Below, in pieces: positions 21,423 to 38,141 of a stretch of DNA of 47,963 bases. The translations under genes and the position numbers were made by a program. This DNA comes from Streptacidiphilus pinicola (GTDB lineage: Bacteria > Actinomycetota > Actinomycetes > Streptomycetales > Streptomycetaceae). The notes beneath the pieces are model-generated. The model was not told where the DNA came from and did not search any database. It saw only the letters and a list, made by a program, of their open reading frames with translations. The stretch is taken from NCBI RefSeq assembly GCF_003258295.1, contig NZ_QKYN01000136.1, positions 1 through 47,963 of the forward strand, written 5' to 3'. Numbering within the stretch: position 1 is the first letter of the stretch; each line of letters starts with the position of its first letter.

Positions 21423-22655
21423 TTACCCGTACTGCACTTCCATCCGCTTGATGCCGTTCAGCCACGGAGAGCGAAGGCGGCGTGGGTCGCCGCTCAAACG
21501 GATCCCCGGCATCGCGTCGGCGATCGCGTTGAAGATGAGGTCGATCTCGAGCCGCGCGAGGTTCGCGCCGAGGCAGAAGTGCGGGCCGCCGCCCCCGAAG
21601 CCGAGGTGGGGGTTGGGGTCGCGGAGGATGTCGAAGCGGTCGGGGCGGTCGAAGACCTCCTCGTCGTTGTTGGCGGAGGCATAGAAGATGCCGACCCGCT
21701 GCCCGGACCTGATCTCCGCGCCGCCCAGCTCCACGTCGCGTGTGGCCGTGCGCTGGAAGGAGATGACCGGTGTGGCCCACCGCACGATCTCGTCCGCCGC
21801 GGTCTGCGGCCGGCGCTCCTTGTACAGCTCCCACTGCTCCGGATGCGTCAGCATCGCGTGCATGCCGTGGGAGGTGGCGTTGCGGGTGGTCTCGTTGCCG
21901 GCCACGGCCAGCACCAGGACGAAGAAGCCGAACTCGTCGCTGCTGAGGTTGCCCTGGCCGGAGGCGTTGACCAGCTTGGTGACGATGTCCTCGGCCGGGC
22001 AGGCCTTACGTTCCTCGGCCATGCCCATCGCGTACGTCATCAGCTCGATCGCCGACTGCATCCCCGTCTCCTGACTGATCGCCAGTTCGGGGTCGTCGTA
22101 GCCGACCATGGTGTTGGTCCAGTGGAAGATCTTGCTGCGGTCGCTCTGCGGGATGCCGATCAGTTCCGCGATGGCCTGCAGCGGCAGCTCGCAGGCGACG
22201 TCGGTGACGAAGTCGCCGCTGCCCTCCTTGACCGCGGCGTGGACGATCCGCTCGGCGCGGTCGCGCAGGGTGTCCTGGAGCGCGTTGATGGCGCGCGGCG
22301 TGAAGCCGCGCTGGACGATGGAGCGGAGTCTGGTGTGCTCCGGCGGGTCCATGTTCAGCATGATCAGCTTCTGGCCGTCGATGCCGGACGGGTCGATCGA
22401 GGGGTGGAACCGGATGATCGCGGTGTTGGTGTGCGAGGAGAAGGTCTCGGGGTGGGTGGAGACCTCGCGGACGTCCGCGTGCCGGGTCACCGCCCAGTAG
22501 CCGCCGTCGTCGAAGCCTGTCGTGCCGTCGGCCTGCGGAATCCAGCAGACCGGCGCGGTGCGGCGCATCGTGGCGAACTCGGGGAGCGGCACGGCCTGTT
22601 GGTTGAGTTCCGGATCGGTCGGGTCGAATCCGTCGGGCAGGGCCGGACAGGACAT
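21423..22655 (-). CDS. CYP125-like cytochrome P450 (steroid/isoprenoid terminal hydroxylase)
   Basis: This 410-aa P450 has the I-helix AVAGNETTRN, ExxR in ADEIVRW and heme-ligand Cys in FGGGGPHFCLGANLAR. Much of its length reads like M. tuberculosis CYP125, the cholesterol C26/27 hydroxylase: LPDGFDPTDPEL, GGFDDGGYWAVTRH, LIMLNMDPPEHTRLR, RGFTPRAIN, CELPLQAIAELIGIP, TWELYK-type and RSPWLNGIKRMEVQYG segments (from memory of the family). Start ATG 22655 has AGGAGG 8 bp upstream. It is divergent from a FadA5-like thiolase. The ferredoxin at 37051 is a plausible electron donor. It most likely oxidises the terminal methyl of a sterol or isoprenoid side chain. Confidence 0.88.
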   Translation of the reverse strand: MSCPALPDGFDPTDPELNQQAVPLPEFATMRRTAPVCWIPQADGTTGFDDGGYWAVTRHADVREVSTHPETFSSHTNTAIIRFHPSIDPSGIDGQKLIMLNMDPPEHTRLRSIVQRGFTPRAINALQDTLRDRAERIVHAAVKEGSGDFVTDVACELPLQAIAELIGIPQSDRSKIFHWTNTMVGYDDPELAISQETGMQSAIELMTYAMGMAEERKACPAEDIVTKLVNASGQGNLSSDEFGFFVLVLAVAGNETTRNATSHGMHAMLTHPEQWELYKERRPQTAADEIVRWATPVISFQRTATRDVELGGAEIRSGQRVGIFYASANNDEEVFDRPDRFDILRDPNPHLGFGGGGPHFCLGANLARLEIDLIFNAIADAMPGIRLSGDPRRLRSPWLNGIKRMEVQYG

Positions 22656-22713
22656 CAAGGGCCTCCTGAGGGGCTCCTGGGGCTCAGACGACTGGGATGG
22701 GACGCTGAGTGGC

Positions 22714-22730
22714 TCTGACGGAGTGTCAGA
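22714..22730. promoter_or_regulatory. TCTGAC-N5-GTCAGA palindrome upstream of P450
   Basis: TCTGAC-GGAGT-GTCAGA is a perfect 6-bp inverted repeat 59 bp upstream of the P450 ATG. The same motif, differing at one spacer base (GGTGT), lies upstream of the luciferase-like oxidoreductase gene at 45668-45684. This suggests a shared repressor, not identified here. Confidence 0.6.
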
Positions 22731-22745
22731 TTTCCACTTGACGGT

Positions 22746-22759
22746 AGTAACACGTTCTA
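22746..22759. promoter_or_regulatory. KstR-like box between P450 and thiolase genes
   Basis: On the minus strand this reads TAGAACGTGTTACT, matching TnnAACnnGTTnnA, the published mycobacterial KstR consensus, at all but the last position. It lies about 90-100 bp from both divergent starts. In M. tuberculosis a KstR site lies between cyp125 and fadA5. A KstR-like regulator is encoded at 37398 in this window. Confidence 0.6.
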
Positions 22760-22810
22760 GTGGATGCAAGGGCCTTGCGCGCGGGGTCTGCGGACGCATA
22801 CAAAGGTCCG

Positions 22811-22836
22811 CAGAACTAGAACGAGTATCAGTTCTG
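22811..22836. promoter_or_regulatory. Inverted repeat upstream of thiolase, shared with ALDH promoter
   Basis: CAGAACT (22811-22817) and AGTTCTG (22830-22836) form a perfect 7-bp inverted repeat. Positions 22816-22835 match 18 of 20 bases with 35500-35519 upstream of the aldehyde dehydrogenase gene (consensus CTAGAACNNGTATCAGTTCT). It ends 22 bp before the thiolase ATG, where a bound protein would block transcription or initiation. Confidence 0.6.
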
Positions 22837-22858
22837 GGCCACTCGGGAGGGACCAGTC

Positions 22859-37049: not shown

Positions 37050-37050
37050 G

Positions 37051-37278
37051 ATGGGGGACCGCTGGCGAGTGGAGGTCGACCGCGGCGTCTGCATCAGCGC
37101 AGGGTTCTGCGCGAGCAGCGCGCCCGACGCGTTCAAGCTGGACGCCGCCCGGCAGTCCCACCCGGTCGAGGAGGAGATCGACGCGTCCGAGGTCGTCCTC
37201 GCCGCTGCGGAGACATGCCCGGTGGAGGCGATCCTGATCCAGATGGCGGAAACGGGGGATCCTGTTTTCCCGGACTAG
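37051..37278 (+). CDS. [3Fe-4S]-type ferredoxin
   Basis: This 75-aa protein has cysteines in CISAGFC and ETCPVEAI, the C-x5-C...CP pattern of single-cluster [3Fe-4S] ferredoxins that donate electrons to bacterial P450s. The N-terminus VEVDRGVCISAGFC is typical. Its ATG follows the aldehyde dehydrogenase stop by 1 bp. No P450 gene is adjacent; the nearest is the CYP125-like gene at 21423, which may be its partner. No ferredoxin reductase is in the window. Confidence 0.92.
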   Translation: MGDRWRVEVDRGVCISAGFCASSAPDAFKLDAARQSHPVEEEIDASEVVLAAAETCPVEAILIQMAETGDPVFPD

Positions 37279-37295
37279 GGACGTCGCAACCTGCC

Positions 37296-37399
37296 AGGGG
37301 CGCGGGGAACTGCCCGAGAAGCCACCGGCGTGCGGATGGCCCTGCGCGTTGAGGACCATCCGCACGACGGTGGCTTGTCGCGCAGTTCCTCGCGCCCCT
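37296..37399. repeat. Long dispersed hairpin repeat, copy B (bidirectional terminator candidate)
   Basis: AGGGGCGCGGGGAACTG (37296-37312) pairs with CAGTTCCTCGCGCCCCT (37383-37399) at 16 of 17 positions. Inner pairs are GCCACC/GGTGGC (37321-37326/37369-37374) and TGCGGATGG/CCATCCGCA (37331-37339/37356-37364). It separates the convergent ferredoxin and KstR-like genes and contains part of the latter's stop codon. It shares outer arms and loop sequence with copy A at 21312. Confidence 0.85.
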
Positions 37400-37991
37400 A
37401 GAGGGTCAGGAGCTTGCAGGCCGTTTCCAGGTCGATCCGGACCTGGGCGATCGACGCGCGGCCGGAGAGCCAGGTGACCAGCGCCGAGTGCCACGTGTGC
37501 TCGATGACCCGCACCGCGGCCAGCTGCTCGCGGGTGGGGGGTTCGGTCAGTCCCATCGCGTCCAGGATCAGCTGGCCGGTGATCCGGCTGACCTGGTCCA
37601 CCTCCGCGCTCACCGAGCGGTCGGCGAAGGTGAGGGCGCGGACCATCGCCTCCGCGAGCTGGGGCTCGCGCTGCAACCCCCGGAAGGTGCGCATCAGGGT
37701 GTCGGCGACGCGTGCGCCGGGGTCCTCGCCCTCGACGGGGTGCTTGCGGGTCTGCTCCTGGAAGATCTGCAGCTGGTCCTGCATCGTCGCGACCAGCAGA
37801 TGCACCTTGGAGGGGAAGTACCGGTAGAGCGTCCCTAGGGCCACGCCCGCCAGCTCCGCGACCTCGCGCATCTGGACCGCCTCGAAGCCGCCGCGCGACG
37901 CCAGTTGCGCGGCGGTGTGCAGGATGCGGCGCCGACGCGCCTCCTGCCGCTCGGTGAGCGGCGGCGCCGCCGGGCGCGGGCTGGTCGTCAT
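37398..37991 (-). CDS. KstR-like TetR-family repressor
   Basis: This 197-aa protein has a TetR helix-turn-helix at about 20-66: RRRRILHTAAQLASRGGFEAVQMREVAELAGVALGTLYRYFPSKVHLLVATM in outline. GGFEAVQMREVA, GTLYRYFPSKVHLLV, the effector-domain AEVDQVSRI and ALVTWLSGRASIAQVRIDLE match mycobacterial KstR, the repressor of cholesterol catabolism genes (recognised from memory). KstR releases DNA on binding a steroid-acid CoA ester. KstR-like boxes occur upstream of the P450/thiolase pair, the hydrolase gene and 137 bp upstream of this gene, so it probably controls the region and itself. Confidence 0.85.
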   Translation of the reverse strand: MTTSPRPAAPPLTERQEARRRRILHTAAQLASRGGFEAVQMREVAELAGVALGTLYRYFPSKVHLLVATMQDQLQIFQEQTRKHPVEGEDPGARVADTLMRTFRGLQREPQLAEAMVRALTFADRSVSAEVDQVSRITGQLILDAMGLTEPPTREQLAAVRVIEHTWHSALVTWLSGRASIAQVRIDLETACKLLTL

Positions 37992-38127
37992 CGGAAGCTC
38001 CTACGTGCCTACCACTGGACCCCACGCATGATGGCGTACTGCGCGGGCGTGGCGCGAATCACCCGCCCCGCCCGATTTCGTAAAGCTACGGACCGGTAAT
38101 CTTCAAGCTCTCTCGCTGCCGCCACGC

Positions 38128-38141
38128 TGGAACGTGTTCTA
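38128..38141. promoter_or_regulatory. KstR-like box between kstR-like and GT4 genes
   Basis: TGGAACGTGTTCTA matches TnnAACnnGTTnnA at every fixed position and is the best such site in the window. It lies 137 bp upstream of the KstR-like gene and 59 bp upstream of the glycosyltransferase TTG, in the 209-bp divergent region 37992-38200, which otherwise holds no gene. It may serve autoregulation, control of the GT4 operon, or both. Confidence 0.65.

Follow-up and report, generated by a model that had tools for sequence, protein, structure and literature searches.

The closest described relative of the system considered here is the cholesterol regulon of mycobacteria, governed by the TetR-family repressor KstR (Rv3574 / MSMEG_6042; Kendall et al. 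2007, PMC1995591), whose effectors are 3-oxo-cholestenoic acid or its coenzyme A (CoA) thioester (PMC9782250). For Streptomyces, SCO2319 (32%) was named by Kendall et al. (PMC1995591) merely as a possible KstR orthologue, and that was the only paper in which our literature search found SCO2319 mentioned. CYP125A13 of Streptomyces peucetius hydroxylates cholesterol at C27, yielding 27-hydroxycholesterol (PMC9728343); we found no mention there of its genomic context or regulation (KstR, a thiolase or a gene cluster). In nontuberculous mycobacteria, ManT and MmpH are two enzymes of the elongation and recycling of 3-O-methylmannose polysaccharide (MMP), which has been proposed to sequester fatty-acyl-CoA (PMC9883506). 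Here we describe a 47,963-nucleotide stretch of Streptacidiphilus pinicola (NZ_QKYN01000136.1; the window, meaning the whole of it; GC 72.8%), which is contig 67 of an 8.43-Mb genome that is 98.65% complete. The window encodes a KstR-like repressor, a CYP125-like P450, a FadA5-like thiolase and an MMP operon, with KstR-type boxes in three promoter stretches. Our favoured reading, held with moderate confidence, is that a KstR-type repressor controls side-chain-only sterol degradation together with the MMP operon in Streptacidiphilus.

The regulator has M. tuberculosis KstR (7e-41) and the Rhodococcus homologue 3bjb as its best solved relatives, and no solved structure is nearer to it than KstR in either sequence or fold. 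The initial annotation had called the gene at 37398-37991 a close KstR look-alike, and this held up, with the reservation that the NCBIfam KstR equivalog NF033703 reached 204 bits and missed its cut-off of 280. In a half-by-half comparison with KstR rows from families f6, f28, and f48, from which the second copies L290 and L296 were excluded, the DNA-binding half is 66-74% identical and keeps GTLYRYFPSK. A TAGAACnnGTTCTA-type operator is present in the regulator's own promoter. In all 110 loci (80 named and 30 further, some species being present in both sets), the gene and manT are divergently oriented; the divergence of KstR from fadE34 was not encountered there. Its nearest named counterparts come from Streptacidiphilus melanogenes (100%), S. 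jiangxiensis (99%), and S. anmyonensis (98%). It is true that the system lies outside mycobacteria, as had been remarked, but it is not rare: strong homologues (at least 63% identity) occur in 44 of the 61 genomes searched, its own included, and 144 of the 394 genomes of the class have a match at E≤1e-25.

Fifteen KstR sites of M. tuberculosis, taken from Kendall et al. (PMC1995591), were made into a matrix that was run over the whole window. The three promoter stretches (662 of 47,963 bases, 1.4%) hold the top three and five of the seven best matrix sites, ranks 4 and 6 (at 1146 and 16154) falling outside them; simple probabilities for this enrichment assume independent placement. The pattern TnnAACnnGTTnnA occurs exactly once, at 38128 (0.05 expected), and nine times with at most one mismatch (1.38 expected). 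Of the three TnnAACnnGTTnnA-type sites first listed, all were retained as matrix ranks 1-3, but only 38128 is exact, and 22746 and 35434 each deviate at a single position. Two sites had been missed: 22817 and 35501, which are both of the type AACTAGAACnnGTATCAGTT, a variant resembling a 20-bp palindrome, and are conserved at FadA5 and ALDH (aldehyde dehydrogenase), respectively. From their sequence, the boxes are predicted to be binding sites of the KstR-like regulator.

Conservation points the same way. Of the 110 loci, 106 have a box ahead of the regulator according to a regular expression, which also matched 139 of 5,073 similar-length windows tiled across the named loci, a figure that counts true sites as well. 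For matrix scores, the null level was the 99% level of in-gene windows, replacing an earlier null that included true sites, and the upstream counts omit loci with less than 120 bases upstream or identity below 60% (48% for the metallo-beta-lactamase-fold (MBL) gene). Upstream regions exceeded this level for ManT in 110/110, FadA5 in 29/30, ALDH in 40/54, and MBL in 39/47, whereas the internal controls did so in 0/69 (luciferase-like monooxygenase (LLM) gene), 1/77 (methyltransferase), and 0/77 (MmpH). T[AG]GAACNNGTANNA was present upstream of FadA5 in 29/30 and of ALDH in 43/54, and the AGTAAC/AATAAC form of the CYP125-side box at 22746 in 15 of 30 FadA5 loci. A perfect TAGAACGTGTTCTA lies near the position equivalent to the 35434 box in L021 and L022. 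The extended pattern ACTAGAACNNGT was discarded as too narrow; in the S. pinicola genome it gave the window sites alone, and the reversed control was higher (20 vs 3). Similar palindromes exist in other TetR systems, and the boxes could belong to another regulator whose resemblance to KstR is superficial; the missed equivalog cut-off fits this, as does the placement of most exact genome sites at unrelated genes or within genes. However, the ranking by an external matrix, the conservation with its negative controls, and the position of KstR as nearest solved fold and sequence make such a coincidence highly improbable.

Other KstR-related genes were also seen. In f6, f28, and f19 genomes, loci L290, L296, L298, and L300 make up another clade of KstR type, with a KshA-like gene in three of the four and an HsaA-like gene in all four; these are possibly the KstR3-type regulators named in PMC7593942. 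A KstR-related paralogue at G000:C84:9836-10411 (L144; 36%) carries GVALGTTYRYF, and many relatives have similar matches. In one relative (G006:C4:4986927-4987376), the KstR-like frame has one internal TGA, which may be an assembly error because that genome is only 76% complete. Two TTGAAC[GC/GT]GTTCAA palindromes 46 bp apart (G000:C117:20986 and 21032; L135) stand upstream of an unnamed gene and are probably sites of another regulator.

Table 1. Genes and KstR-type boxes of the S. pinicola window, in order of position.
Feature	Coordinates	Strand	Evidence or remark
CYP125-like P450	21423..22655 (ORF opens 22799)	-	PDB CYP125 3.5e-156
Box AGTAACACGTTCTA	22746..22759	.	CYP125 side; matrix rank 2
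Box TAGAACGAGTATCA	22817..22830	+	FadA5 side; matrix rank 5
FadA5-like steroid 3-ketoacyl-CoA thiolase	22859..24028	+	NF005889 680 bits, cut-off 515; PDB FadA5 4e-151
AtuA, acyclic terpene utilisation (start estimated)	24187..25920	+	PF07287 1.7e-148; AtuA_ferredoxin 3.4e-16
Acyl-CoA carboxylase beta, geranyl-CoA-carboxylase-like by residue rule (start estimated)	25893..27518	+	PF01039
Biotin carboxylase / biotin carboxyl carrier protein alpha subunit	27515..29533	+	Biotin_carb_N, CPSase_L_D2, Biotin_carb_C, BT_MCC_alpha, Biotin_lipoyl
Acyl-CoA dehydrogenase of Atu-like operon	29530..30705	+	Three acyl-CoA dehydrogenase domains
Second TetR-family regulator (start estimated)	30780..31379	+	TetR_N match 30837-30977
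MBL-fold hydrolase (start estimated near 35326)	34313..35326	-	Divergent from ALDH; NF053820 459 bits
Box TGCAACGCGTTCTG	35434..35447	.	MBL side of MBL/ALDH promoter; matrix rank 3
Box TAGAACTGGTATCA	35501..35514	+	Upstream of ALDH; matrix rank 7
Aldehyde dehydrogenase, ALDH (start by eye)	35577..37049	+	3B4W 487 bits, sole match below 1e-115
KstR-like TetR-family repressor	37398..37991	-	Solved relatives, NCBIfam model, fold
KstR-type box TGGAACGTGTTCTA	38128..38141	.	Between regulator and ManT; exact match; matrix rank 1
ManT-like alpha-(1->4)-mannosyltransferase of MMP	38201..39526	+	PDB 7QSG 3e-129; next 1e-23
S-adenosylmethionine-dependent methyltransferase	39581..40321	+	Methyltransf_11; best solved relative 3e-14, not close
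MmpH-like MMP endomannosidase	40318..41370	+	PDB 7QSJ 3e-126, sole match at 1e-4
F420-dependent LLM oxidoreductase, Rv3520c family	44635..45648	-	TIGR03559 440 bits, cut-off 335

The initial annotation was right about both side-chain enzymes of the window. The P450 scored 524 bits to CYP125 vs 332-333 to CYP124, with CYP268 and CYP126 also far behind; its translation contains EIVR and FGGGGPHFCLG, and it is 57% identical to the CYP125 of G054, the mycobacterium-like reference genome used for identity comparisons. In a small tree with a midpoint root, it falls in a 100/100 group with mycobacterium-like CYP125, CYP142 standing apart. Judged by eye from the G054 protein start, the true start is probably at 22655 rather than 22799, which would place the box at 22746 upstream of the gene and not within it. 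By analogy with CYP125A13, the enzyme may hydroxylate a terminal sterol methyl. The thiolase lies above the cut-off of its NF005889 model and is 62.5% identical to the FadA5 of G054. Phylogenies grouped regulator, P450, and thiolase with KstR, CYP125, and FadA5 rather than with other TetR, P450, and thiolase families, which would have refuted the initial reading, the order of the KstR subgroups being without resolution. A functional link is supported by co-occurrence: FadA5 (E≤1e-100) is present in 37 of the 44 genomes that have a strong KstR-like gene, and only one of the 17 others contains it, a genome that itself has a 46% KstR. As had been noted, the arrangement resembles that of Rv3545c/Rv3546: the two genes are divergent with boxes between them, and Table 3 of Kendall et al. 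gives the motif there (PMC1995591).

The remaining boxed promoter of the window separates ALDH and MBL genes. The solved structure closest to the ALDH is 3B4W, which we take to be Rv0223c. Both Rv0223c and MSMEG_0309 are listed with the motif, and the gel shift for Rv0223c was negative (PMC1995591). The MBL gene missed the NF053820 cut-off of 525, and its alignment starts at residue 45 of a 379-amino-acid open reading frame.

Side-chain-type genes under the same box recur elsewhere in the S. pinicola genome, in which 30 exact TNNAACNNGTTNNA sites were counted vs 11 for the reversed pattern. Four of the intergenic sites are at such genes. On contig C154, the boxed promoter precedes a lipid-transfer thiolase, then an MFE2-type hydratase, an alcohol dehydrogenase, and a short-chain dehydrogenase/reductase; by synteny, the C154 genes, a fadE34-like one (48%) among them, lie beyond the window's right end. 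A box precedes an acyl-CoA dehydrogenase on C179 and another stands at an acyl-CoA dehydrogenase at C266:56409, whereas the box at C266:88150 has FadD on one side and ECH-DUF35-DUF35-Ltp4-Ltp3 on the other (ECH, enoyl-CoA hydratase). Identities to G054 were 52% for FadE26, 37% for FadE27, 48% for FadE34, 44% for FadD19, 53% for EchA19, 67% for Ltp3, 57% for Ltp4, 48% for the Rv3538 homologue, and 55% for the Rv3502c homologue, the names in the G054 cluster (FadE26, Ltp3, etc.) being presumed from gene order; a 68% Ltp2 homologue lies on contig C131. The tighter pattern TAGAACNNGTTCNA gave 102 strand matches in 14 genus genomes, this one included, vs 6 when reversed. Sixteen relative loci were fetched for carrying the box, and 14 were orthologous to promoters already known here: four to that of C154, six to that of C179, and four to that of the C266 dehydrogenase.

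Genes for opening the steroid rings were a different matter. The initial annotation had reported no steroid-ring genes in the window, and indeed 14 ring, C/D-ring, and uptake proteins of G054 gave no tblastn match to it at 1e-3. The 9,10-seco ring degradation set was not encountered in the S. pinicola genome either: KshA_C had 0 matches, HsaC reached 23 bits at best, which is noise level, and KstD gave a partial 34% match of 73 bits that is not convincing.

A number of results weigh against a side-chain-only sterol regulon under this repressor. Besides the missed equivalog cut-off, the ligand half of the regulator is only 35-44% identical to the same f6, f28, and f48 KstR rows, and the effector may thus differ from that of KstR. 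In the KstR tree, the Streptomycetales clade (95/76) stands outside the clade of classical KstR (99/98), and resolution is lacking at the deeper forks. CYP125A13 gave no product with cholestenone (PMC9728343). Four genus relatives have KstD at ~50%, so ring steps may exist in them. The genome-wide scan itself is mixed: although side-chain-type promoters recur, the 30 exact TNNAACNNGTTNNA sites comprise one in the window, 17 inside called genes, and 12 that are intergenic, and eight of these 12 are at other genes. The eight include sites at major facilitator superfamily/DUF222 genes, a PaaK-like ligase ~490 bp off, a glycerol-phosphate-oxidase-like gene, GFO/ROK genes, an arabinofuranosidase, a rhomboid gene (two sites), and one gene without a name. 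The Ltp2 operon showed no box, the fadD/ech box is present in only 6 of the 13 genomes that have the gene (S. pinicola included), and two of the 16 relative loci (L258 and L267) carry genes unrelated to the known set. The site in L267 (G012:C3:46196), amid genes outside that set, is a perfect TAGAACCAGTTCTA.

Directly behind FadA5 lies an Atu-like operon, and this arrangement suggests isoprenoid catabolism. Geranyl-CoA carboxylase (GCC) has Gly in place of Phe191 of methylcrotonyl-CoA carboxylase (MCC) and lacks a three-residue insertion (PMC4673880). Aligned to 3u9r, the window's beta subunit lacks both the insertion and the MCC Phe, in keeping with this rule, whereas over its whole length it scored 595 bits to MCC beta and 500 bits to the geranyl-CoA carboxylase beta subunit 5ikl, MCC beta being the nearer of the two. 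A leucine (MCC) operon at 24187-30705 was set aside in view of AtuA and the residue rule, even though no solved structure matches the beta subunit better than MCC beta over its whole length. The second TetR gene is likely a local regulator of the operon, judging by its position. A carotenoid cleavage oxygenase-like gene (32987-34306; NF052295, 400 of 675 bits) lies between the operon and the MBL/ALDH pair and could belong to isoprenoid breakdown.

It might accordingly be a non-steroid isoprenoid, such as an acyclic terpene, an apocarotenoid, or another methyl-branched lipid, that the regulon serves, CYP125 oxidising a terminal methyl while FadA5 and the Atu-like operon remove branched units. 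AtuA and a beta subunit that follows the GCC rule stand immediately behind FadA5, the oxygenase-like gene is in the same cluster, and the lack of KshA and the noise-level HsaC match would need no excuse. Yet the operon is a subclade addition. It lies between FadA5 and MBL/ALDH in S. pinicola and G012 (L181/L182), and parts occur in L016, L018, L019, and L020, but between FadA5 and ALDH it is absent from L183 and L184, where CYP125, FadA5, and the boxes are retained; its linkage to FadA5 thus holds in part of the genus only. Co-transcription with FadA5 is not assured either, because L182 has other called genes between FadA5 and AtuA. Ltp2, Ltp3, Ltp4, EchA19, and FadE26 act in sterol side-chain degradation, and the presence of their homologues is best explained by sterol side chains. 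Of the sterol, hopanoid, or other isoprenoid that the initial annotation had proposed, a sterol is the favoured substrate, with another isoprenoid as a less likely second possibility; nothing spoke for or against a hopanoid, for which no search was made.

The most constant partner of the regulator is the MMP operon. All 60 named loci that span the full 20 kb have ManT, the methyltransferase, and MmpH next to the regulator. Methyltransferase and MmpH are missing from three of the 80 named loci, but these three are short contigs in which ManT is still present. The best match of the window's ManT, 7QSG, is M. hassiacum ManT (PMC9883506). The methyltransferase, whose placement between ManT and MmpH is conserved across loci, is by that position the probable counterpart of pMeT3. 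An MMP operon is expected to provide both a 3-O- and a 1-O-methyltransferase; beside this one no second methyltransferase was recognised, no sequence search having been made for one. Among 24 other-family loci, hand-picked from a longer list of class-wide KstR homologue matches (394 genomes), the trio lies within 19-19.5 kb of the KstR homologue in six (L272, L294, L295, L299, L301, and L303, with ManT alone of the trio inside the fetched stretch of L303), and a box precedes ManT in five of these six, the exception being L301. The idea that these genes correspond to Rv0224c/Rv0225 was dropped on the ManT and MmpH matches.

Constancy of this kind might mean that the regulator chiefly controls MMP and general fatty-acid metabolism, with CYP125 and FadA5 as minor targets. 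The retention of ManT in every full-length locus and its box in all loci would agree with that, and so would the diverged ligand half and the fact that 7 of the 44 genomes carrying a strong KstR-like gene lack FadA5. FadA5 is nevertheless present in the other 37, its boxes are found in 29 of 30 loci, and four boxed promoters outside the window stand at side-chain homologues; we give an MMP-centred regulon only a small chance. The reduced KstR regulon for side-chain oxidation that the initial annotation proposed is largely upheld: it fits the boxed side-chain homologues found elsewhere and the lack of ring genes, but it was incomplete because the MMP operon (38201-41370) and the AtuA/geranyl-CoA-carboxylase-like operon went unrecognised. 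Taken as a whole, that first observation was partly confirmed and is sound with these corrections.

In the side-chain-only sterol regulon that we prefer, a dimer of the regulator would bind 14-bp boxes in seven or more intergenic regions (three in the window and four elsewhere), keeping their promoters shut until it is released by a branched side chain, probably that of a sterol, in the form of its acid or CoA thioester. Release would open the promoter of CYP125, which would oxidise the terminal methyl, along with those of ALDH, a FadD19-like ligase, FadA5, acyl-CoA dehydrogenases, hydratases of the EchA19 and MFE2 types, and lyases of the Ltp3/Ltp4 type; the promoter of the ManT-methyltransferase-MmpH operon would be opened together with them. 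The MMP might then buffer the long acyl-CoAs, steroid- or isoprenoid-CoA, that are produced; the rings would stay unopened because genes for opening them were not found.

We regard the MMP link as the most interesting part of this variant of the KstR regulon. A KstR-type switch with the same box is very common in the family, Streptomyces included, and the MMP operon is its most constant target, which provides both a regulator of MMP and a physiological context in soil actinomycetes that can be put to the test. Streptomyces griseus (locus L051 here) is reported to make an acetylated MMP (PMC9883506). We raise tentatively, as a possibility and nothing firmer, that KstR-family control of MMP is an old and widely kept part of actinobacterial sterol or lipid regulation, in which MMP would be induced alongside side-chain catabolism as an intracellular carrier or buffer for bulky steroid- or isoprenoid-CoA thioesters, S. 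griseus included. Our literature search found no paper with methylmannose and KstR together; neither 'KstR' nor 'regulator' occurs in the main text of PMC9883506, and the main text of the papers on Nocardioides KstR sites is without mention of glycosyl or methyltransferase. A side-chain-only sterol pathway might also be of use for making C19 or C22 steroids.

Two groups of genes in the window lie apart from the above. An LLM oxidoreductase (at least 50% identity) was near the MMP operon in 70 of the 80 named loci and served as one of the box-negative controls. At 4152-6735, adjacent proteins are Ku-like and LigD-ligase-like, with a LigD-primase-like frame at 3777-4673 on the opposite strand, names that we presume from the translations.

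Compared with the KstR cholesterol regulon (Kendall et al. 2007, PMC1995591), the Streptacidiphilus system shares a TetR regulator and the same box, a box in the regulator's own promoter, boxed divergent cyp125/fadA5 genes, and a side-chain gene set. Rv0223c is listed with the motif in PMC1995591, and the window's ALDH is closest to 3B4W, which we take to be that protein. It differs from the regulon of PMC1995591 in that the regulator is divergent from manT, not fadE34, and scores below the NCBIfam equivalog; in that the genome is without KshA and has no convincing HsaC or KstD match; and in that MMP and Atu-like operons sit in the cluster. Like the window's P450, CYP125A13 is a streptomycete CYP125, itself 56% identical to M. 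tuberculosis CYP125 (PMC9728343). The run of AtuA, carboxylase alpha and beta subunits, and acyl-CoA dehydrogenase is shared with the Atu pathway, and the beta subunit fits the geranyl-CoA carboxylase rule (PMC4673880), but here the operon follows a sterol-type thiolase that has a KstR-type box, and the host is a high-GC actinobacterium. With the meT1-mmpH-meT3-manT cluster of nontuberculous mycobacteria, the Streptacidiphilus operon shares ManT, MmpH, and a methyltransferase in one operon, whereas no fourth gene (MeT1) was recognised in it (PMC9883506). Unlike that cluster, the operon described here is divergent from a KstR-like gene and has a KstR-type box in front.

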